Source: a virus. Taken from it: a stretch of 41,760 nucleotides of DNA. The DNA lies in IMG/VR virus record IMGVR_UViG_3300030329_002226, positions 1 through 41,760 of that record. One strand, given 5' to 3'. This document shows, piece after piece, positions 2,506 to 31,645 of this stretch. Made by a program: the position numbers and the translations under genes. The notes under the pieces were generated by a model, which had not been told where the DNA came from, searched no databases, and worked only from the letters and a program-made list of their open reading frames with translations. Positions within the stretch are counted from its first letter, which is position 1, and each line of letters begins with the position of its first letter.

Positions 2506-5500
2506 TTAAAAATTTAATTTTGGTTTAAATTCTAATCCTTTAAAATCTAAATTAGGTCCAAAATCTAAAGGACCAGTTCTACCTCTTCTTCCATTTCCAT
2601 CTTCTATATTTAATCCTAAATTCCACGTACTATATCCTAAGAAGAATAATATTCTTTGCCACATTTCAAAGTCACTATCAAATGCATTTTTTAAATTTTC
2701 TGATTTAATATACAATCTGGCTACTGGAACTTGGGTAGCTGCTTCAAATCCAAATAGAAGTGCTTTTATTAGATTAGCATTTTTTAAAATTTTATCTGCT
2801 CCTTTTTCAAGCGCCAATATATCGTTAATTTCTTGTTGATTCCACGTGTATGTTCTATATGCTTGAACGGCTTTTCTTGATATTATAGCAGCTGGTACAA
2901 TTCCTTCGGATAAAGAAAGAACAAAATCACCTTCTTTATAAATAGCTTTATCATCTTTACCCATTCTGATTGTAGTAAGAATTATGTTTTTAATCCATGA
3001 TATAAATGCTCCATATATTCCTTGACCTTTTAATGTAGAATCAACCCAACCATTTGCGAATCTATTCCAGTTTTTATTATATTTTTCTGTTGGAAGTTCT
3101 TTTTCTTCTTCGTCCCACATTGTAGCCATTAAAGCGTTTTGAAGAAAAGCAAAAATAGCATATTGTAATCCTCCATAATAACTTATAACTCCAAGATTGT
3201 GTAATAAATTACCTCGTCCTTTAGCAATATCCATTGCTTTACTTTTCATTATTCTTCCATACTGTAAAGGAGTATTTTGAAATGCTAACATTAATCTACC
3301 CAGATTTCTGGCTTGATTAAAGGATATTTTTGATGGATCTCCAGATTGCTGAGTATCTTCTGCTAATACAAACCAATCGAACTCAGCCTTTTTAATAGCT
3401 TCTTCTTCAGTAAATCCATCTTTTTTATAAGTATTTATTCTATTTCTATAAAACGTAGTACCTCCAAAAGCAATTGCAAAACTATCTACTACTCTTGTAG
3501 GTCCAAATCCTATTTTTAATAAATAAGATAGAAGGGCATTCATATATTCCATCGAGTTAGAATATTCAAATTTAGTAGCTAAATCAGCAATTTCTTGTTC
3601 CTGTAAACTATTTAACATACCTTGTCTTCTATCTTTTAAATATGAAGAATTCCATAATGTATTAAAATCTTCCATAAATTGTGGTACATTAAGTATAGCT
3701 TTTCCAGCAGCTAAAGGATTATTATCAGTTGTATTTAAAAAATTCATAAAAGAAATAGTCTGTAAAGCTGCAGAACGCATGTTAAAAAACATAGTAACAC
3801 CAATAGTATTATTTAAATAATCCATAAAAGCATGTCCTATATCTTCAGGATTATTCCTTTTGCTAATCTGTTGTTGACCATATTTCATTCTTTCTAAATT
3901 ATCCTCTATAGAAACTCTCATTGCATTTCCGTAAATAGCTTGAATTTTATTTAAATTAGCATCTGTAAATATTAAATCAACATTTTGTATAAATTTAGCT
4001 AAATATTTAGTTCTTTCTGCTTCAACAAGATTATTTTTTATTTCAGAGGAAATAGTTCGACTTGTCCACCCTTCATAAGGTTCAATCCACCCATTTGGTT
4101 GTTTGGAAATTTGTGAAGCTTTATTAGCAAATTCTCTTAATTCTTTATCTTTGTTTACTATTGCTATTAATCTAAATTTTTGTGGCATACTTAACCCTGG
4201 AATACGTTTATTTCCTTTTGCCCAGCCTTTACTCCACATATAAACTCTAACTGCATCTCCATAAGTAAATGTTTTCATTCCTTTTATAGGGGATGTTAAT
4301 TTACCTTTCAGACCTGGAGAATTTTTCCATAATTGTGTCCAAGCTTCAACAGTTTTAACTTTTGCAGTTTTTAATTCAAAATTTCCTTTCATGTAAACAT
4401 CAAATACTTTCTCCCTAAACCATTTCTTTTGTTGTTCTCCTTTTTTTCCTTTACCAGTAGCCATCAACTCCATTAATCTCAAGATATCCATATCTTTTGC
4501 TGACAATAAACCTCCACTTCTCCACCATTGACCTTTGTCAGAACCTAATCCATATTTACCTAATACTTCAGCTTTTTCTATTTGTTTTTTAGGATCTATA
4601 TTACCAGTTTCAGCTAATATTTGATTTAACGCATCACTTAAGTTATTACTATATTCATCAAAATTATAATCTTCTTTTCTACTAAATTTAACATCTCCTT
4701 CGTTTAATATTTTGCTAGTTATTTTACCAGTTGAATTCTTGGCGTTTCTAAATGTAAAATTATTATATCCTTGAGACATTTTATTTATTAAATATAAAGC
4801 AATAGCTTTATCATTTAAATTACCTAAATTAGGAACATCAAATTTAATAGAATATTTAATTTCTTGATCTCTTGATCTTAAGTCTGAATTAATGAAAGCT
4901 TGTTGAGCAACATTTGCAATAGCTATTTGTTGATCTAGAGTTCTTCCTTTAAATAATGGAGATAAATTATTGTTAATACTAAATTTAACACTATCTGATT
5001 TTCCTGTAGCCATATTATCTATAACTTCAGCTATAATATTATCTTGTTTTAGTTCTTCATATAATATTGGATTTTTTTCTGCAATTTGATTTAAAAATCT
5101 TTCACTTCTTAAAGAATTTCTAGCTTCTTGTAAAATAAGCACATCTCCAAATAATTGCATTAAAGATGTTCTTCTATCAAAAAATCCTGTTGGTCCTATT
5201 TCTCCCATTGTTTTATCAGCTTTCTCACTTAATTCAACTGGATAAGATCTTAATTGTTTTATTTCACTTTCCGGATTTTCGTTATATTTATTTATAATTT
5301 CTTCTGCTTTGTTTTTACCAAAATAAGCTTGTAAGAATAAAGCCCTAGTTATTTTTTTATTTTTTGTTGGTCTACCTTGTTCATCAAATTCTCTTAATAT
5401 AGTAGGTATTTTTTTAGCAGCATAAGTAGATTCACCAGTAACAGGATCATAAGGATTGTTTATAACTTTATATATTAATTCCCAATTATTATACATAAAG

Positions 5501-10412: not shown

Positions 10413-12236
10413 TTATTTAGGATAATTCTTTTTAAATCTTTTTTTATACGCGGTTTTCATTCTTTTTATCCACTCTCCTTCAGATTCTGGATCTACTCCT
10501 GTGATTTGTGGATTTTGATCATACCAATCAGCAGCCCAAGCTAATGCTCTTAATCTAGTTTTATTCTCCATGTCTTCTCTTTCTGTTTTATCAATGTTAT
10601 CTAAAACAAAATTCAATCTACCTATTGCGGTATCTAAATCATAATCTCCTATATGTCCTTGAATATTTCTTCCTTGTACTTTATATAATCCTTCTGTAGG
10701 AAAATCTGCATTAAACGCTTCTACTGGATCTAGATCTTTTGATTCATAGTATTGTTTATTAGTATAGGTCTTATACTTTGGATGTTCAGATTCCAACCAT
10801 AGTGAATATATATCTTGTTTATCCATTAATCTTAAATTAGGTTTAAATTTCTTAATGGTTTGTTTAGTGGCCTCTACTCCTGTTAAATTTTTATTTTTAG
10901 GATCAATTATAGTATCCATATAGTCTACTCTATAATCTAATGGTCCATCATCATCATCTGTTGATGGAAACGCCTTAATACTATCTTGGGTATTATGAAA
11001 TATGTTTCCATTATCATCTGTAGTTATTCCATCAAAACTAGTTAAACTTTCTATTACTTTCTTAAATAATTCATCAGCCATTTGTTCATTATCAGGTAAT
11101 AACTTTTGATAGGAATTTGCAAAACCTTCATTTAGTTTTTGTAAATCTATATTCCAAAAATTAGCCATTTGTTGTGGTCCTGTTTTTGCTAGTCCTAAAA
11201 CTTTTTGTTTTAACACGCCTTGCATATCCGTACGCAAAAGATCTAAATTTAATCTTCTTTGTATATTAGTAGTTTGCATTGAACCTCCACCAGAAACAGG
11301 AATAGTTCCTTGTATAACTTTATCATCTATCCAATATCTATCTGCTATAACTCCTTTATCGTTTAATACTCCTATTCCATTTTGATTTTTACTTTGCTCT
11401 TTAAGTTTCAACATATCAATAGTTTCATTAACTACTTGAGGAACATTTGATACAAATTGAAAATCTTGATCTCCTGATGCTACTCTTGCATTCCAAGCTC
11501 TTGCGCTAATTATTTTTTCTCTATAATCTCCTAATATCATGTTTCCGTTAGTATCTAATTGATGTTCATTTCCTGATACTCTTATCTTTATATCATTATT
11601 TTCTTCATCATAAACCATTTCAAATTGAGCATCGTCATATACTCCTCCTAAAGCATTTACTAAGTATTGATTATTAGCTATTTCATTCTCATCATTACCA
11701 ATTATTGTAATTTGAGATCCAATAGTTGGTGCTTTCTCTTTCCAATAAGTTCCTAAAGCTCCAAAGTTTGTTATAGTTTCTTTAGTTAAATTTAATAAAT
11801 CATAATAATCTGCAAGAGCTTTTTGAGCACTAGCTCTTTTTGCTTTATCACCAAATTGTGTTTTTAAATATACATTAGCTTGAGTAGCTATATCTAATCT
11901 TTGTTCTAGTGTAGCACGTAATTGATCTTCTATTGCGGTAGAACGTGGCATACTATTAAGATTACTCATCTGTTCTAGATTCCATAGATCAGCATTGACT
12001 TGGATTGTTTGCATATTTTGAATAATCTTTTGTCTGTTTGCTTCTGCTAGACGTTCTTCTTGTTTTCGCGCCTCTTCTTCTTTTTGTCTTAGAATATCTC
12101 CTTGTTGTAATACTCCTACCATAGCAGCACCTGGAGTAATAGATCTACCTCTTTGAGGATTAGAATACGCGCTGTAATTTACATTAGGTAAAGTAACTCC
12201 TGGTAAAGGGTAGCTTGATTGTGCTTTTGTTGCCAT
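10413..12236 (-). CDS. Ejection/internal virion-type protein
   Basis: This 607-residue protein lies directly before the giant gene (5-base gap) and after the Gly/Ala-ended internal protein gene, the position of T7 gp15-like core proteins. A Pro/Ser-rich N-terminus is followed by a long Glu/Lys/Gln-rich helical stretch at about residues 40-80 (LRQKEEEARKQEERLAEANR), then a mixed alpha/beta region, and an acidic patch near residue 430 (STDDDDGPLDYR). The C-terminus is basic (KKRFKKNYPK). There is no signal peptide or clear TM segment. Its start has the AAATTATG context. No catalytic motif was recognised. An internal or ejected virion protein is the best guess from position. Confidence 0.72.
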   Translation of the reverse strand: MATKAQSSYPLPGVTLPNVNYSAYSNPQRGRSITPGAAMVGVLQQGDILRQKEEEARKQEERLAEANRQKIIQNMQTIQVNADLWNLEQMSNLNSMPRSTAIEDQLRATLEQRLDIATQANVYLKTQFGDKAKRASAQKALADYYDLLNLTKETITNFGALGTYWKEKAPTIGSQITIIGNDENEIANNQYLVNALGGVYDDAQFEMVYDEENNDIKIRVSGNEHQLDTNGNMILGDYREKIISARAWNARVASGDQDFQFVSNVPQVVNETIDMLKLKEQSKNQNGIGVLNDKGVIADRYWIDDKVIQGTIPVSGGGSMQTTNIQRRLNLDLLRTDMQGVLKQKVLGLAKTGPQQMANFWNIDLQKLNEGFANSYQKLLPDNEQMADELFKKVIESLTSFDGITTDDNGNIFHNTQDSIKAFPSTDDDDGPLDYRVDYMDTIIDPKNKNLTGVEATKQTIKKFKPNLRLMDKQDIYSLWLESEHPKYKTYTNKQYYESKDLDPVEAFNADFPTEGLYKVQGRNIQGHIGDYDLDTAIGRLNFVLDNIDKTEREDMENKTRLRALAWAADWYDQNPQITGVDPESEGEWIKRMKTAYKKRFKKNYPK

Positions 12237-12255
12237 AATTTATTTTATTTATTTA

Positions 12256-12371
12256 TCATTCCCCGTAGTCATAATAATACGAATTGGGGTCGCTTAAACT
12301 TTCGTAATCATCATCTTCTTCTCCGGAGTTTAAGTCTGGACTTACGGAATTACCGGCCGCTATCCCCCCCC
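12256..12371 (-). other. Candidate -1 frameshift site (G8 run) and 35-codon acidic extension
   Basis: On the minus strand the preceding gene reads ATC GGG GGG GGA TAG across a run of eight G (12364-12371). The heptamer G GGG GGA (12369-12363) fits the X XXY YYZ slippery rule. A -1 slip enters a frame open for 35 more codons (ATA GCG GCC GGT AAT...), ending with TGA at 12258-12256, 19 bases before the next start. The extension contains NSGEEDDDYES and a Tyr-rich end (NSYYYDYGE). Without it the gap is 123 bases, unusually long among these tightly spaced genes. Either the shift is programmed and makes a minor long form, or the true sequence has G9 and the gene was broken by a homopolymer error. 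Confidence 0.55.
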
Positions 12372-13034
12372 GATTAAACCTCCTATACCTCCTACTACTT
12401 GTCCTAAAGAGTTATACATTTGAGCTTCTGCCGCAGCTTCTGATGCTCTCATATCTCTTAAATCTTGTTGTGCATTAGCTAACATTGATGCTTCTCTATT
12501 AAGTTCTGCTACTTCTCTTTGTTCTTGTGTGCCAAACATAAATTGTTGACCCATAACATCAGCTGATTGTAATCTTTGCTCTTCTTGCATCCTCATTTGA
12601 TTTAATCTTTCTTCTCCTTGAGCATATAGTTTTTGATTTTGAGCTTCTTGCAATTGAATACTAGCGCCTACTTGTTTCTTACTTTGTAATGCAGCTTGGG
12701 CTAAAGCTGTAGCACCTCCAGCACTAGCTCCTGTTGCTCTTAAAGTATCTAATGTATTAGCAAGAGAAATATCTGCTTGTTCTGCTTGAAATTTAGCTGC
12801 TTCTGTTGCAACACCTAAATTAGCATAAGTATTAGAAAGATTTCCACTAGTATCAGTCACATTAGCGTATGGATTGATAATAGGTTGTCTAGTGTTTTCT
12901 AATTCCTCTAATTCACCTTGAAGTCTATCTTTTTCAATCTGAGCATTTTTTCTATCGTTTCTCGCTCTTTTTTGTGCGGCACCTGCGCCTATAACCCCTA
13001 CTATTCCTGAGGCTACACCTGAAGCTGCTCCCAT
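12360..13034 (-). CDS. Internal virion protein, T7 gp14-like type
   Basis: This 224-residue protein has a Gly/Ala-rich hydrophobic N-terminus (MGAASGVASGIVGVIGAGAA), a long Gln/Glu/Ala-rich helical body (about residues 25-205) and a Gly-rich hydrophobic end (VVGGIGGLIGGG). Hydrophobic ends around a helical rod are seen in small ejection proteins of the T7 gp14 type, and it is the first gene of the three-gene ejection block. The 0-frame stop (TAG at 12362-12360) falls immediately after a G8 run, and a -1 shift would add 35 acidic residues, so this C-terminus is uncertain. The start is one base from the stop of the GNAT-like gene. The function call rests on composition and position. Confidence 0.75.
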   Translation of the reverse strand: MGAASGVASGIVGVIGAGAAQKRARNDRKNAQIEKDRLQGELEELENTRQPIINPYANVTDTSGNLSNTYANLGVATEAAKFQAEQADISLANTLDTLRATGASAGGATALAQAALQSKKQVGASIQLQEAQNQKLYAQGEERLNQMRMQEEQRLQSADVMGQQFMFGTQEQREVAELNREASMLANAQQDLRDMRASEAAAEAQMYNSLGQVVGGIGGLIGGG

Positions 13035-13035
13035 A

Positions 13036-13455
13036 TTATTTTGGTTTATTTTTATATATTATACTGTGTTTTTTTGTTCCAATAGTGTAATCAAGTAATT
13101 TTAATTTTTCTAAAACAGAATCATATGGAGTAGTACACCATACTGCTTCTGCTCCTAAATCCCAACAAGTATTAACTGCTTTGTCTATCAATAAAATTAA
13201 TATTGCTTCTCTATTTTTTTCTTTATAATTTGGATCTGCAACTAAATAATCACAATACCAAACTGGAGAATTAGTTTCGTATATAAATACCGCTGCAACT
13301 AATTTTCCATTAATTTCAGCAACTAATCCATTCTTACCATTATTAGGTAATAATTTTTTATCTATTTTTATCTTGTGGTAACTTTCCCACCACTCATCTA
13401 TAGTAGATGCATCTTTATTAGGCTCAATAGGCCTAATAGACAATTTGTCTTCCAT
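13036..13455 (-). CDS. GNAT-like acetyltransferase
   Basis: A 139-residue protein with the layout of the GNAT fold: an N-terminal strand (LSIRPI), helix (STIDEWWESYHKI), central strands (LVAEINGKLVAAVFIYE and WYCDYLVADPNY), then the acetyl-CoA-binding segment KEKNREAILILLIDKAVNTC, a strand AEAVWCTTP, and the final helix and strand (LEKLKLLDYTIG...HSIIYK). The canonical Q/RxxGxG/A loop is replaced by KEKNREA, so cofactor binding is uncertain. It sits between the tail-hub and ejection genes, a place where marine phages often carry such a gene. The substrate is unknown. It might modify a virion or host protein. Confidence 0.6.
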   Translation of the reverse strand: MEDKLSIRPIEPNKDASTIDEWWESYHKIKIDKKLLPNNGKNGLVAEINGKLVAAVFIYETNSPVWYCDYLVADPNYKEKNREAILILLIDKAVNTCWDLGAEAVWCTTPYDSVLEKLKLLDYTIGTKKHSIIYKNKPK

Positions 13456-13464
13456 TTAATTTAA

Positions 13465-14763
13465 TTAATATGATGATTCAACGTATTCTGTAGATACGGC
13501 AAATAATTCATTAGTTTGAGTAGCTCCTGCTGTATTAGTAGCTGTAAATTTAGCTATTCCATAAAATCCTTTTATTCCAGAAATATCTTTTCCATAAATA
13601 ACTTCTCCTTGATTTACAGTGCTTGTATTTATTAAATTTGCAAAATATTTATTTTCTTTTGCTTTAAATTCATTTTTTAACAAAGCAGCTTCCATGTCTG
13701 CTAATGTTGTTGGTATTGTATAAACACCTACGGCATTAGCTGAATCAGTAGTTGTGGTAAAAGAATCTAATGCCCAATTACTATCACCTTCATAATTAAT
13801 AGTTTTAAATGTTTTACTTGTAGAAGGTTGTATATTAAAAATAGAAGTAACATCTGATGAATTATTAACTCCATAAAACGAAGCTCTATTAGAAGTTTCA
13901 GAATAATGTTGCCATAAATCTCCATCTAAATCAAAAGTATAAAATTTATTATCTAAACTAAACATTTGAGAAGGAACATAACTATAAAAACTTGTCCACC
14001 CTTTAGTTTGTTCATCAAAAGATAATGTTACAGCATTAGCTCCTGTAGAGTTGTTTAGAGTAGGTTGAATAGAAATAGTATAACATTTGTTATGTATATC
14101 CCATCCTCCTATTACTTTACCTGATACTCCTAAATTAGCAACATTTAATTGATCTCTAAAAAAATCATACATTCCGTAATTAGATATCTCAGTTAATCCA
14201 TCTTGAGATAAACGCATTACCGAACCTTTATTAGCATCACTAAAATATTTTCTATATCCATATACTGCAAAGGATTCAGGGTTTGTAGCTATTCCAAATT
14301 CTCCTGCATATGGTTGAATTTGACCTATAACTAAATTAGTACTAGTAGTTACTGGTTGACCTTCTGCTGAATAAATAGCATCTTTATCAATTAAGGCTCT
14401 ATTTACTTTATATTCTTGGAATATAACAAGATTTGTATCTTCAGCATATAGTTTTTGTATAGTTCCTTTTCCTGGATCAACTGTTCTAGTAATATCATTA
14501 GCAACTGAAAACTGATTAGTTTCATTAATATCAGTTCTTGAATTAAATATACCAGAATAAATAATAGTATTATTAAAAGCTTCTTGGTATTTATCATCAC
14601 TGCTTAAATAAGCTCTTGGTGCTAAACCAGAAAACTTAGCATTATAATCTCCTTTTATTCTTGATTCTTCTACAAACCAATCATATTGAGCATTTGCTGT
14701 ATTACTATTAATTTTTTTAAGTATATACGTGTTATAATACTTTACATTTAACGTTGTTGCCAT
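13465..14763 (-). CDS. Tail hub / muzzle-type beta-rich protein, second component
   Basis: This 432-residue all-beta protein follows the 1695-residue tail gene with a 32-base gap. Blade-like repeats such as TNLVIFQEYKVNRALID, GEFGIATNPESFAVYGYRKYF, DEQTKGWTSFYSY and NKFYTFDLDGDLWQHY resemble the beta-propeller-like part of podoviral tail nozzle (gp12/P22 gp10/muzzle) proteins. It may be the C-terminal half of a protein that is fused in relatives, or a partner assembled on the larger one. There is no signal peptide. The intergenic leader just upstream of its ATG contains a 16-base sequence repeated at 38908. The nozzle role is inference from fold pattern and position. Confidence 0.65.
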   Translation of the reverse strand: MATTLNVKYYNTYILKKINSNTANAQYDWFVEESRIKGDYNAKFSGLAPRAYLSSDDKYQEAFNNTIIYSGIFNSRTDINETNQFSVANDITRTVDPGKGTIQKLYAEDTNLVIFQEYKVNRALIDKDAIYSAEGQPVTTSTNLVIGQIQPYAGEFGIATNPESFAVYGYRKYFSDANKGSVMRLSQDGLTEISNYGMYDFFRDQLNVANLGVSGKVIGGWDIHNKCYTISIQPTLNNSTGANAVTLSFDEQTKGWTSFYSYVPSQMFSLDNKFYTFDLDGDLWQHYSETSNRASFYGVNNSSDVTSIFNIQPSTSKTFKTINYEGDSNWALDSFTTTTDSANAVGVYTIPTTLADMEAALLKNEFKAKENKYFANLINTSTVNQGEVIYGKDISGIKGFYGIAKFTATNTAGATQTNELFAVSTEYVESSY

Positions 14764-14795: not shown

Positions 14796-17700
14796 CTAAG
14801 CTCCAGGCCAGTTACTTGTTTTATACCACCAATCAGTTACAAATGGTGGAGATCCTGTTGCAGGTTGAATTGGTTTAGGATCAATAGGAGCTGCAGGAGT
14901 TGCCGCATTAACATCATAATATATTTCAATACCTGCTCCTCCATCACATGTGTTTAAAGAAGTAAAGGCTATTTTATTATTTATCCATACACAATCTCCA
15001 AAATCATAAGCAGCACCACTAGAATCTGTACCTTTATCTCCTGGAACTACTCCATCAGTAATTTGTTGAGCAGTAGGATTAAAAGGTTGTAATGTACCAA
15101 TTAATTGCCATGCAGTACTAGTACCACTATAACTCATATTGACTGCTCCTCCTAAAGCAGCTGTACCATCACCTTTTGCTGGAGAATTAGAGTTTTGGGT
15201 ATTTTCTCCATTCCAAGTTACTTGAAAACTAGAAAGAGCAGTAACTGTAGTATCACCTGGTCTAAATATATTTCCAATCTTTACATATATGTTTATTGGT
15301 ACACCAGCATTATAATCCCAGTTTGCAATTTCTCCAACCCATGTAGGTAGAACTGGAGTAGAATATTGAGTCTCACATCCCGCATACATGTTTACAGCTG
15401 GAGCGTTCCATTCATTAGCAGTTGCCGCAGGATTATTATTATAAAAGTTAATTTTTACTCCTGTATATCTAGTCGCTTTAGGAGTCCATTGTACTACAAT
15501 AGTTTCACTGTCTCCAGTAGAATTTAAATCAGTTAGTTTCATTACTAATTCTTGAAGAGTAGCTTCATATTGAGAATTATAAGTAGATAAGTTTCTATTT
15601 ACTTTAACACCATAAAAATTAGTATTACTTCCTGTAGTACAAGTTGATTGATTTCTCGCTTCTTGTCCACTTATTAACATATAATAATCAATGTCAGTTG
15701 AAGTAGGTTCTCCAGTAGGATTTTGACCTGTTATATAATCTCCCCATACACCTAAAGTATTTTGATATCTAAATGACTCAATAGACCATTGTATATCTTG
15801 AGTTCTTTGACATGGATTAGCACTTCCATTGTATCCTTTTAATACTCCTGGTCCATTTCCTGGTCCTGGATTTAATCCTCCTGGAGGAGTATATCCTGTA
15901 TAATCTAATATTTCTTTATCAGCTATTTCTGGAGCTGGAGCTAAAGATAAATCACATATAGGTGTATCATTAATTAAAGTATGTGTGATAGTTTGATAAG
16001 AAACACTACCATCGTTTTGAGTAAATTTAATCTTTATCTGATATTTTTCTAAATATTCAAAGTTAATTAAACAAGCTCTTTCTGCTCCTACTTTTAACTG
16101 TAAATAAAAACCTCCTCCTCCAGCGCTTACAATATTAAATAATGATATACTAGGTTGAACTGGTTGATCATTAGAATCATGAATAAGAGTTTCGACGATA
16201 GAAGCTGTACTGTATTCATCATTACCTTGAGGAGTTACAGGCCAAAACGTAGTTGTAATTTGAGCATTACCTGCATCACCTTCATTGAACAACCAACTAA
16301 AAGCAGATATTCCTGTTATTTGAGTTCCAGTAGATGTTATCTCGTAATTTAAATCAGATATTAAACCACTTGTAGAGGTTTCATAAAATAAATCTAGTTG
16401 AGAAACTGTAGGTGCAGTTTCATATACAGATAACCTCATGTATGCTGGATAATCTGGTCTTCCTGCTACAGGAACTGTATTATAAGATGTTTGTATTAAT
16501 CCAATACTTTTTTGAGTATTAACTTTTGCAACAAAAGGTTTTGATTCAACATCATAAATAGCATTGTTATTTATTTCATTATCACTTCCTCCTGGTCCGT
16601 CGCTATAAGTTATATCAGGGAATATATCTTTTATTCCTCCAATAAGCTCTACACCATCTGCGTTTATACTAGGAGAATATTGAGCATTTCCTGGAGTAGT
16701 TGCTTCATTTGTTACTCTTCCCCAACACATTAAATCACTATTAAATTGTTTATCCTGGTTACTTACATCTGTTAATTGTCTAGGAACTTTATTTATATTA
16801 TCATGTGTTAATACTATAAAAGCAGTACTACCTACTTCAGTTGTATTATCACCAATAGGATAACCATCTATAATTCCAGGTAAATATACATTATAAAATT
16901 CTTGTTGTTGTTGTTTTACTACTACTCTATAAGAATAAAACCCCATTTCATTAATAGTATATACATAGTTAGTATAAGCTTGAGATATAACAGGTTCTGG
17001 ATATATAGTACTACTTTGCGTTAAGAACATATAACTATCTGCTATTTCTTCATAAGTATAAATATTAAGAATATTGTTTGTACTAGGATCTGTTTGTCTT
17101 TCTATTTTAACATAATCTTGATATTTTCCTCTTAATTCTTTTCCTACTGCAAATAAATCTTTAGATGTTATTAAATCAGCAGCAGCATCTCCAGTGGTTG
17201 GAATATATGATAATGTATAATAATATTCACCACTCGTAGTATCTGTATTATATTTTAATTCTGCTTTTATTTGTTGATTTAAAGGCAATGCATTGTTTAA
17301 AGTAACTTTTAATTTTCCATTAGTTGGATCTGTTGGTGTAGAAGATGCGGCAGCTGTATATGTCGCTGGAGCAATAACAACCCATCCTGATCCATCATTA
17401 GAATATAAATTAAAAGTATTAGCAGCTGCTTGAGTATCTGAGTAATCTATACTTCCAAAAAAATATTTTAAATCTGCAGTTAAACTACCTGTGAATAAAG
17501 TAATAATTACGCTTGTACTACCTCCAATTACACTTGTAGAAATAGTAAATGTATCTCCTGCTACATAACCTGTTCCTGCTTCTTCTAAAGTTACACTAGT
17601 TACAGCATTACCAGTAAGAGTTATCTCAAAACTTGCTCCTGATCCCGCTGAAGAACTTGTAGTCCAACCCGAAGTAGTACCTGGAGTTCCTGAATAATCT

Positions 17701-19883
17701 CCATTATTTCCATCAGAAGTATTAGTAGTAACATTTGCAACTGCTAAAGTAGTTATTCTTGATCCTGTAGTATCTAAAATTTGAGTTGAATAATTTTTAA
17801 AATAAGAATATGGTGCTCCACCAGGAACAGCTACTGTGTATTGTTCTGGAACAGCATATAATCCTGCGTCATTTCCATTTACATTCACAGCGCTATCGAA
17901 TCTTACAGCTAGTTGCTCACCTTGCCATCCAGACAATGTACTAGCGTTTTCTACTGGTCTATAATTAGAAAAATAATTTGATCCTTCTGTAGGTTCTCCT
18001 CCTGCTACTAATACGTTATCTTTTGAAGAAAGTATAACATCTGTTTGTCTTCCCCATTTATCTGCTAAAATTATTCCTACTTGGTAATTTCTATTTTCTT
18101 TTACAGAGTGTTGAGGATATTCTTCATATTCTTGATTGTTTTTGTCTTTCTTTTCTACAGCATAATCTAGTCCTAAAGGAGCATTATAACCTTGTATAAA
18201 ATTTCCATACATTACTCTATTACCTGCGATTTCTTGAGATAAAGCTCTTACTGGAACTTTATCATAAACTCTAGTGGTTTCATCAGTAGGTAGAGTTTTA
18301 TAAGGAATAGTAGATTGATAAGTATATTGGTAAACATTAGTGTTATTAAGATTAGATATAAATGTAGTATCTACAGGTACACTTTGTAATACTTTGTAAG
18401 CTAAAGAATCAGATTCTTTATATATAATATCTATTTCTTGTATTTTATAATCATTTATAATATCTAAAGAAGGGAGTTCAATGTTTAATATAACATTATT
18501 AATATTATTTTGCATAAACTCTACTATTGTAGATGTCATTGTGTCATCTTCATCTTCATTAACAAACTTTCCTTCTTGTTGAGGAACAAAACATTCTTGT
18601 GTGAATGGAGCAATAAGAGAGTATTCACCGTCGTTATATTTAAATCTATAACTAAATCTTATAAATTTATCTTTCATTAATTCTGGATCACCTTGCCATC
18701 CTTTAAAACTAGCATCTTTTATTACTCTAACTGCTCTTCCTTGAAGATTAGAAGTTGATGCTGGAAGAGTTGGAGCAGCTCCACTATCTAAAATTTGAAA
18801 ATATTTATCTACTCCTTTAATCCAAAATTCTGCGTGTGTATTAATATTTTGAAAATCTGTTACACTACTAGTAGCTACTCTTTCTCCAGAAGGTAAAGCA
18901 TTAAAACCTAAACTATTGTTTGTTATAAGAGATGTAGAAGTCCAATATGCTGTTGATTTAATATCTGCTACTGTTCTTCCTCCAGATGTAGTATAAGTTT
19001 CAAGAGCAGTATAATTAGCTTCAGTAGCTAAAGTATATCCATAAGGAGCTAAATTTCTGGAATCTTCTACTGCCCATTTATTATATAGTTTTCCATATAT
19101 AACTCCATTATCATAATCATTACTATAATAACACCACGCTCCTACTTGTCTAGTATTTGCATCTACCCAATCCGCCCATGTAGTTGCGTGTTCTATTAGA
19201 TCTCCATTTCTATATCTAGTTACATCTAAGTTAACTGTTGCCCAATCCAATGCATCTATTAGTATAGTAGGAATATCAGCTCCATTACTCATTGTGCTTG
19301 GAAGAGTAGAACTAACACTTCTTAAATCTACTAATCTTGGAGCGACATATGGAGAATATTTACAAACAGTTATATCTGATTCATCAGTATAATAAGTTTT
19401 TCCAGAACCACTAGGACTGGCTGTTTGAACATTAATAACTCTTGGTTGATTCCTATTATCTGTCCAAAATAAAAGATTTTCTAATAAATTTACCCCATGT
19501 ATAGGAGCTTGAGTAGAAAAGTTGAGAAAATGACCTTCTACTAAAACATCTGGGGTATTTGTTCCTGAGCTAGGTGACCATCTACATATTTGACAAGAGT
19601 TTGTAGTAGCGATATCTTGACTTAATGTTCCTGAAAAATCTGTTAAAAAATAGTATATAAATCCTCCGGCTTGATCTACATAAGTTCCTATAGTTTCTAA
19701 AGAACCAGTACTTGAAAATACAGCTTCATTACCTAAAACAGCTTCTAAAGCCCCTACGTCTTGATTCTCTGATCTAGAAACTGCAATATTATTAGCGTCT
19801 CTGTATTCATTTTTTGGAATTAGTCTATCATCTAAGTCTTTATTCATTTTAGACTTAATGAAACTATTTTTATTTTCAGCCAT
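14796..19883 (-). CDS. Giant tail hub/nozzle protein with embedded FISUMP-type domain
   Basis: This 1695-residue beta-rich protein lies downstream of two ring proteins, the position of podoviral tail nozzle or crAss-like muzzle proteins. The N-terminus (SKMNKDLDDRLIPKNEYRDA, GVNLLENLLFWTDNRNQPR) and the region around residues 545-620 (EIAGNRVMYGNFIQGY, KENRNYQVGIILADKWGRQ) match the pattern I associate with those proteins. Between them, at about 213-392, is a FISUMP-like segment: NLDVTRYRNGD, WCYYSNDYDNGVIYGKLYNK, LAPYGYTLATEANYTAL, then AVRVIKD. It lies just before the conserved FRFSYRFKYNDGEYSLIAPF-like block (residues about 395-425), as an insertion would. It likely forms the tail tip and may touch the receptor through that domain. 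The C-terminal 1000 residues are Thr/Ser/Asn-rich beta repeats. Confidence 0.75.
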   Translation of the reverse strand: MAENKNSFIKSKMNKDLDDRLIPKNEYRDANNIAVSRSENQDVGALEAVLGNEAVFSSTGSLETIGTYVDQAGGFIYYFLTDFSGTLSQDIATTNSCQICRWSPSSGTNTPDVLVEGHFLNFSTQAPIHGVNLLENLLFWTDNRNQPRVINVQTASPSGSGKTYYTDESDITVCKYSPYVAPRLVDLRSVSSTLPSTMSNGADIPTILIDALDWATVNLDVTRYRNGDLIEHATTWADWVDANTRQVGAWCYYSNDYDNGVIYGKLYNKWAVEDSRNLAPYGYTLATEANYTALETYTTSGGRTVADIKSTAYWTSTSLITNNSLGFNALPSGERVATSSVTDFQNINTHAEFWIKGVDKYFQILDSGAAPTLPASTSNLQGRAVRVIKDASFKGWQGDPELMKDKFIRFSYRFKYNDGEYSLIAPFTQECFVPQQEGKFVNEDEDDTMTSTIVEFMQNNINNVILNIELPSLDIINDYKIQEIDIIYKESDSLAYKVLQSVPVDTTFISNLNNTNVYQYTYQSTIPYKTLPTDETTRVYDKVPVRALSQEIAGNRVMYGNFIQGYNAPLGLDYAVEKKDKNNQEYEEYPQHSVKENRNYQVGIILADKWGRQTDVILSSKDNVLVAGGEPTEGSNYFSNYRPVENASTLSGWQGEQLAVRFDSAVNVNGNDAGLYAVPEQYTVAVPGGAPYSYFKNYSTQILDTTGSRITTLAVANVTTNTSDGNNGDYSGTPGTTSGWTTSSSAGSGASFEITLTGNAVTSVTLEEAGTGYVAGDTFTISTSVIGGSTSVIITLFTGSLTADLKYFFGSIDYSDTQAAANTFNLYSNDGSGWVVIAPATYTAAASSTPTDPTNGKLKVTLNNALPLNQQIKAELKYNTDTTSGEYYYTLSYIPTTGDAAADLITSKDLFAVGKELRGKYQDYVKIERQTDPSTNNILNIYTYEEIADSYMFLTQSSTIYPEPVISQAYTNYVYTINEMGFYSYRVVVKQQQQEFYNVYLPGIIDGYPIGDNTTEVGSTAFIVLTHDNINKVPRQLTDVSNQDKQFNSDLMCWGRVTNEATTPGNAQYSPSINADGVELIGGIKDIFPDITYSDGPGGSDNEINNNAIYDVESKPFVAKVNTQKSIGLIQTSYNTVPVAGRPDYPAYMRLSVYETAPTVSQLDLFYETSTSGLISDLNYEITSTGTQITGISAFSWLFNEGDAGNAQITTTFWPVTPQGNDEYSTASIVETLIHDSNDQPVQPSISLFNIVSAGGGGFYLQLKVGAERACLINFEYLEKYQIKIKFTQNDGSVSYQTITHTLINDTPICDLSLAPAPEIADKEILDYTGYTPPGGLNPGPGNGPGVLKGYNGSANPCQRTQDIQWSIESFRYQNTLGVWGDYITGQNPTGEPTSTDIDYYMLISGQEARNQSTCTTGSNTNFYGVKVNRNLSTYNSQYEATLQELVMKLTDLNSTGDSETIVVQWTPKATRYTGVKINFYNNNPAATANEWNAPAVNMYAGCETQYSTPVLPTWVGEIANWDYNAGVPINIYVKIGNIFRPGDTTVTALSSFQVTWNGENTQNSNSPAKGDGTAALGGAVNMSYSGTSTAWQLIGTLQPFNPTAQQITDGVVPGDKGTDSSGAAYDFGDCVWINNKIAFTSLNTCDGGAGIEIYYDVNAATPAAPIDPKPIQPATGSPPFVTDWWYKTSNWPGA

Positions 19884-31370: not shown

Positions 31371-31614
31371 TTTCTACAGATTCTTTTATAGAACCATCAT
31401 TCAAATCTATAGTTACTTCACCATATGTTTTCTGAAGATTGTTTTTAACTTCAACTATCTTAGCGTCGTTTTCATTAAAAGTTTTTATCAAATTAGAAGT
31501 TTGAATTTGTAAACTTCCTATTTGCATTGCTAAAGTATTAGCATGTGCAGTTAATTCTTGAACTTCTTTTAATTCTTCTTCTTTAATTTTATTTACTTTT
31601 TCTTTTGTTGCCAT
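31357..31614 (-). CDS. Small coiled-coil protein
   Basis: An 85-residue, mostly helical protein: MATKEKVNKIKEEELKEVQE, TAHANTLAMQIGSLQIQTSN, then NDAKIVEVKNNLQKTYGEV, with a short beta end (VTIDLNDGSI). Heptad-like spacing suggests a dimeric or trimeric coiled coil. The start has the AAATTATG context with a tandem AATTT leader. It overlaps the next gene by 14 bases, which implies coupled translation. A virion or assembly role is likely from context only. Confidence 0.68.
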   Translation of the reverse strand: MATKEKVNKIKEEELKEVQELTAHANTLAMQIGSLQIQTSNLIKTFNENDAKIVEVKNNLQKTYGEVTIDLNDGSIKESVENDGK

Positions 31615-31645
31615 AATTTAATTTAATTTAATTATTAATTATTAT

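Follow-up and report, generated by a model that had tools for sequence, protein, structure and literature searches.

A gene in an uncultured viral genome stops at a TAG codon directly after eight consecutive Gs, and a slip of one base backwards on this run would open 35 further codons in the gap before the next gene. This raises the question of whether the site directs programmed frameshifting, with an internal virion protein made in two forms, or whether a homopolymer sequencing error truncates the real gene; a previous sequence-only reading had left both possibilities standing. The locus lies in the stretch of 41,760 nucleotides analyzed here (the window). Comparison with related contigs favoured programmed frameshifting, with the same G8 run, stop and tail recurring in a diverged relative (L008) and GGGAAAG- or AAAAAAG-type heptamers occupying the same spot in distant ones. 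All of the evidence is comparative, without reads, transcripts, reporter or peptide data.

The gene end and its genomic setting

On the minus strand, the 0-frame gene ends with ATC GGG GGG GGA TAG. The G8 run, the TAG after it, the 35-codon -1 extension, the 19-nt spacer and the 123-nt gap between the 0-frame stop and the next start, all reported in the sequence-only reading, were confirmed from the sequence at every coordinate. The features are as follows:

13465..14763, minus strand: tail muzzle/nozzle-like gene upstream of the frameshift gene, a neighbourhood marker (Pfam crAss_MUZ_C)
12360..13034, minus strand: 0-frame gene P0001, 224 aa, internal virion/ejection-type protein (ORF, profile homology, helical prediction)
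12364..12371, minus strand: G8 run (sequence; identical run in L008)
12363..12369, minus strand: slippery heptamer G_GGG_GGA (X_XXZ_ZZN) in the 0 frame, 7 nt ahead of the 0-frame stop (same heptamer in L008)
12360..12362, minus strand: 0-frame stop TAG, directly after G8 and A (sequence)
12259..12363, minus strand: -1 frame extension of 35 codons, IAAGNSVSPDLNSGEEDDDYESLSDPNSYYYDYGE (89% identical -1 tail in L008)
12256..12258, minus strand: -1 frame stop TGA (sequence)
12323..12356, minus strand: weak candidate downstream stem, possible frameshift stimulator (MFE -7.0 kcal/mol, z = +0.15; not significant alone)
10413..12236, minus strand: next gene, 607 aa, with ATG at 12236 (19-nt spacer after the -1 stop)

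The tail is acidic and Tyr-rich and contains no K or R. No other run of six or more Gs is present on either strand of the window, one further G6 besides the G8 was found in the 67-kb record, and G/C runs of eight or more are very rare (three in 2.28 Mb of fetched loci, including that of L008 at the same position). An open frame of 35 codons is unsurprising by itself, and it is the comparison with relatives that makes it significant.

The window is part of a 67,276-bp IMG/VR record (IMGVR_UViG_3300030329_002226; G+C about 30%). Its minus-strand gene order is terminase (phrog_6681), portal (phrog_6547), other virion structural genes, a 1695-aa protein, the muzzle/nozzle gene, a GNAT-like gene, the frameshift gene, the 607-aa protein and a 2633-aa protein. 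The muzzle gene scored 38.7 bits against crAss_MUZ_C (cut-off 27), and crAss_MUZ itself gave 26.6 against 27. Matches to TerL were obtained only from flavobacterial podoviruses (Elemovirus, Cellulophaga, Tenacibaculum and Maribacter phages) and MW202828 (phages collection, E 1e-5), and for this reason the phage was not filed in Crassvirales despite its crAss-type muzzle. The terminase and muzzle proteins match Elemovirus, Pervagoviridae (e.g. phi38:1), Pachyviridae (e.g. phi18:3 and Gundel_1) and the uncultured MW202828, and the phage appears to be of a marine flavobacterial type.

Several other features of this region were recorded. The GNAT-like acetyltransferase gene (13036-13455, minus strand; weak Pfam match) lies between the muzzle and frameshift genes, and MW202828 has an annotated N-acetyltransferase at the equivalent position. 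The 1695-aa protein of the structural block (14796-19883, minus strand) has an inserted Fib_succ_major domain (residues 209-360), and a GroEL-type chaperonin is encoded by the phage at 36981-38534, minus strand (Pfam Cpn60_TCP1, 205 bits). Two genes share a 33-nt leader (TAAATAAATAAAATAAATTATGGCAACAA-like) that surrounds the start codon (31602-31635 and 12224-12256, minus strand); it represents an A-rich start context of the Bacteroidota type rather than a Shine-Dalgarno leader.

The profile of the window family was matched to that of Cellulophaga phage phi18:3 gp120 and its cultured relatives (hhalign 96.8%, E 2e-10, 123 columns). This gp120 occupies the corresponding gene position and is annotated, on the strength of MS/MS proteomics, as a virion protein; that evidence concerns the homologue and not the window phage. 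The cultured homologues were reached via TerL, the muzzle and the elemo gp20 gene; cultured-phage DNA and protein searches with P0001 or L084 found nothing. The predicted fold is almost entirely helical, with three long helices and low confidence at both ends. A sequence search of solved structures (PDB) returned no match to an ejection or cargo protein, a Foldseek fold search gave no significant match (model pTM only 0.41), and the PHROG search gave an uninformative match of marginal strength to phrog_33336 (E 0.002). The muzzle of PhicrAss001 is gp44, and its cargo protein C1 (gp45), carried in both capsid and tail, is believed to take part in forming the channel for ejection (PMC10172136). 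The earlier designation of the product as an ejection protein therefore has indirect support only (position after the muzzle/nozzle gene, a fold predicted to be all helix, and homologues detected in virions by MS), with no sequence or structure match found to solved ejection or cargo proteins; the ejection or cargo label is an inference from position and architecture.

Relatives with and without a shifted extension

Seven near relatives (L001-L007, 84-93% aa identity), among them the nearest of all (L001, 93%), end in ...IGGLIGG or similar, have the next gene 1-10 nt later and carry no tail. Likewise, the long gap after the gene is absent from the cultured relatives examined. The tail is therefore dispensable for the basic role of the protein.

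L008, an independent contig with 86% aa identity, has the identical G8 and TAG, and its -1 tail is 89% identical to that of the window, from which it differs in its end and by 3 nt inserted in frame. It had been proposed that related contigs be compared for run length and for the encoded tail, and in L008 the run is again G8 and the tail is kept in the -1 frame. It had also been held that relatives stopping at the same place without conservation of the extension's frame would refute the proposal. This is partly the case, in that L001-L007 stop there without an extension, but not in L008, the sole close relative with one, where the frame is kept; distant relatives show the same arrangement. Only about seven differences separate the two tails (pS 0.16, pN 0.04), and across the final 40 nt of the gene, the tail and the sequence up to the next gene's start the two contigs are much more similar than in the flanking coding DNA, a pattern of sequence that suggests either constraint or recent exchange of the segment. 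A search of viral_contigs by the G-run junction with variable run length allowed, in which five further matches were taken as chance, revealed no other run length of the tract, and neither this nor a degenerate peptide DNA search detected the window's particular tail in any frameshifting relative beyond L008.

Five profile searches of IMG/VR, together with a first single-protein search, yielded 178 distinct gene clusters. Core heptamers (GGGAAAG/C/T, AAAAAAG and GGGGGGA) were counted in frame within 16 nt of the 0-frame stop, and gaps on these metagenomic contigs were measured by a mechanical next-ORF rule. Where the gap was at least 50 nt, 18 of 21 loci had a core heptamer 7-13 nt ahead of the stop, with a -1 ORF filling most of the gap; none of the 151 loci with smaller gaps had one. 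The association (Fisher 1e-21) is nominal and optimistic, since the loci are related and the heptamer set was fixed after the first cases had been seen; with any X_XXZ_ZZN heptamer the value is 4e-17. Within gene bodies, core heptamers occupy 9 of 42,289 in-frame positions. Altogether, the arrangement with core heptamers was found in 20 relatives plus the window; L049 and L312, which lie near contig ends and whose gaps were not measured, also have the heptamer and the -1 ORF.

Two of the three long-gap exceptions (L103 and L110) share TTT GGG TAA C, with a +1 ORF filling the gap, and appear to use +1 rather than -1. In these loci (L103 around 3218-3310, L110 around 3209-3340) the 0 frame ends with GCC TTT GGG TAA C and the +1 ORF has 21-39 codons. 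The only unexplained long-gap locus is L138 (gene end 3166), where a 359-nt stretch contains no recognised heptamer and no long shifted frame.

The rule relating gap and heptamer also held in 11 relatives from the held-out genome_contigs set, which behaved as predicted: the only long-gap locus, L417 (102 nt), combines GGGAAAT at -7 with a -1 ORF of 30 codons, and the other ten have short gaps and no core heptamer (L418 has AAAAAAC but no tail). Some contigs (L419, L425, L421 and L422) were binned into MAGs labelled Woesearchaeota, Ilumatobacteraceae and Aliivibrio, which are probably binning errors. A quick tree required at least 17 switches between the frameshifting and non-frameshifting states, and the arrangement is therefore not one inherited event; the count takes no account of branch support, and it would be too high if 3' ends had been exchanged.

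How the tail may be reached

We consider it highly probable that programmed -1 ribosomal frameshifting produces short and tailed forms of a helical internal virion/ejection protein. Most ribosomes would stop at the TAG and release the 224-aa protein, which ends (...GGLIGG) where the non-frameshifting relatives end. A fraction would shift backwards by one base on G_GGG_GGA as the glycine tRNAs in the P and A sites re-pair with GGG GGG, and would add the acidic, Tyr-rich tail of 35 residues. Both forms would share the body, with the tail on a minority of subunits, and the ratio of short to tailed protein would be fixed by the slip rate, as in T7 10A/10B and lambda gpG/gpGT. What the comparison establishes is the anatomy of the site, its conservation, the rule across the family and the coding nature of the tails. 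Slippage on the host ribosome, the presence of both forms in the virion and a modification of channel formation or ejection contacts by the tail are inferred, no data on a trans-frame product being available. The function of the tail is unknown, and our best guess is that a minority of tailed subunits modulates packaging or ejection.

Many relatives have a hairpin a few nt past the heptamer (mean MFE -8.7 kcal/mol, versus -0.9 in non-frameshift loci; mean z -1.1 versus +0.25), with clear stems for example in L153, L162, L107 and L163. The downstream fold of the window was no better than that of shuffled sequence (z +0.15). An AGGAGG lies upstream of the window's G run, and its Shine-Dalgarno-like action in such a host is untested. 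In E. coli, the three strongest -1 motifs include G_GGA_AAG and A_AAA_AAG, and GGN codons are on average poor shifters (PMC4066793). These two heptamers are the commonest in the census, and the site of the window looks to be one of the weaker.

Slippage of RNA polymerase on homopolymers is a known alternative route of recoding (PMC5009743), and the G8 of the window and L008 has two Gs more than the heptamer needs, so the tailed form of the window might be made by transcriptional rather than ribosomal slippage. We regard this as improbable, because most relatives achieve the same effect at the same place with GGGAAAG/C/T, which is too short a homopolymer. In the family as a whole the shift is naturally read as ribosomal -1 frameshifting, since GGGAAAG offers no long homopolymer for polymerase slippage; at the window itself it may be inefficient or partly transcriptional, because heptamers of the G_GGG_GGA class are weaker on average and the fold downstream of this one lacks statistical significance.

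Phase variation in bacteria uses tracts of the G8 kind, and replication slippage could in the same way toggle genomes between G8 (short protein) and G9 (tail fused in frame). A G9 read in frame (KSGGGTNTG...) does occur in the C-terminal part of the same gene in L195 (3248-3256), a 'fused' counterpart of the G8 arrangement. Such a contingency tract is nevertheless very doubtful, considering that both independent contigs have G8, that viral_contigs held no other run length and that most frameshifting relatives have no long mononucleotide tract.

A single base would make the frame continuous, and with a homopolymer error in sequencing or assembly the true gene would have another run length and encode one long protein. 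This was not borne out and is scarcely credible now: the diverged contig L008 has the same G8, stop and -1 tail, the 0-frame end coincides with the C-terminus of the non-extended relatives, and some twenty other loci show this -1 arrangement with different heptamers. On the basis of L008 and the family rule, it was rejected as largely refuted.

Across the family, the tails behave as coding sequence. Homologous -1 tails were found in L084 and L102 (E 2e-10), L107 and L116, L109 and L175, and L135 and L163. The tails of L084 (GGGAAAG) and L102 (GGGAAAC) have YKPNDTVGFY in common, and a VSTLTPQG-type core is common to those of L135 (-1), L163 (-1) and L103 (+1). The -1 tail of L064, PPVEVGEEWGSYTPSL, matches the in-frame C-terminus of L076, PPTEVGETWGSYTPTL (81% over 16 aa, E 3e-9). 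Judged from these comparisons, the tails of the family are real, constrained peptides, and a non-coding spacer or decayed sequence is strongly argued against. That the gap is non-coding or the decaying remnant of a once-fused tail draws some support from the ease with which tails are gained and lost on the tree, but it is largely refuted for the family and hardly tenable, because tails are homologous across -1, +1 and in-frame arrangements and kept open, pooled tail pN/pS is 0.42 (five pairs), and core heptamers occur near the stop only where there are tails.

Relation to known recoding in phages

The frameshift heptamer of lambda is G_GGA_AAG, which is also the commonest in this family. Lambda gpG/gpGT and other tail-assembly chaperones (Xu et al. 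2004, cited in PMC8008677 and PMC9965538) further resemble the present case in a -1 shift conserved across distant phages; they differ in being assembly chaperones of long-tailed phages, whereas a virion-protein homologue of short-tailed phages is concerned here. T7 gene 10A/10B is a virion structural protein whose major form is short and whose minor form gains a C-terminal extension by a -1 shift near the 0-frame stop (PMC5009743), but it is the major capsid protein and not a gene downstream of the nozzle/muzzle, and its site is atypical with a distant stimulator. Kuravirus gp8 (phage YF01) is likewise a podovirus virion gene with GGGAAAG just before the natural stop and an extended -1 isoform (PMC9965538); that gene encodes the major capsid protein with a very long extension, whereas here a helical protein of 224-304 aa receives about 14-45 residues. 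PhicrAss001 cargo C1 gp45 and the T7 and P22 ejection proteins are comparable in position downstream of the muzzle, predicted helicity and a Gly/Ala-rich N-terminal stretch (PMC10172136), but no sequence or structure match to them was found, and frameshifting is not mentioned in PMC10172136. In the open-access literature, frameshifting in this gene class or phage group was not found reported (subscription papers were not covered).

The mechanism is thus known in phages, mainly from tail-assembly chaperones and capsid genes, and what appears new is the class of gene concerned, together with the recurrent gain or loss of the shift and the exchangeability of the tails. Across these aquatic Bacteroidota phages, a large group whose members are mostly uncultured, frameshifting has been repeatedly gained or lost at one site of a virion-protein homologue, which implies that a defined ratio of two protein forms matters. 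We tentatively suggest, without regarding it as established or even as the probable case, that the gene end is a module slot in which unrelated short tails are exchanged between lineages and attached in frame, by -1 (five heptamers) or by +1 (TTT GGG TAA C in L103 and L110). If so, virions would carry a tuned minority of tailed subunits, possibly as an adaptation of the ejection apparatus to the envelopes of different hosts. Such proteins are truncated by gene callers that take no account of recoding.
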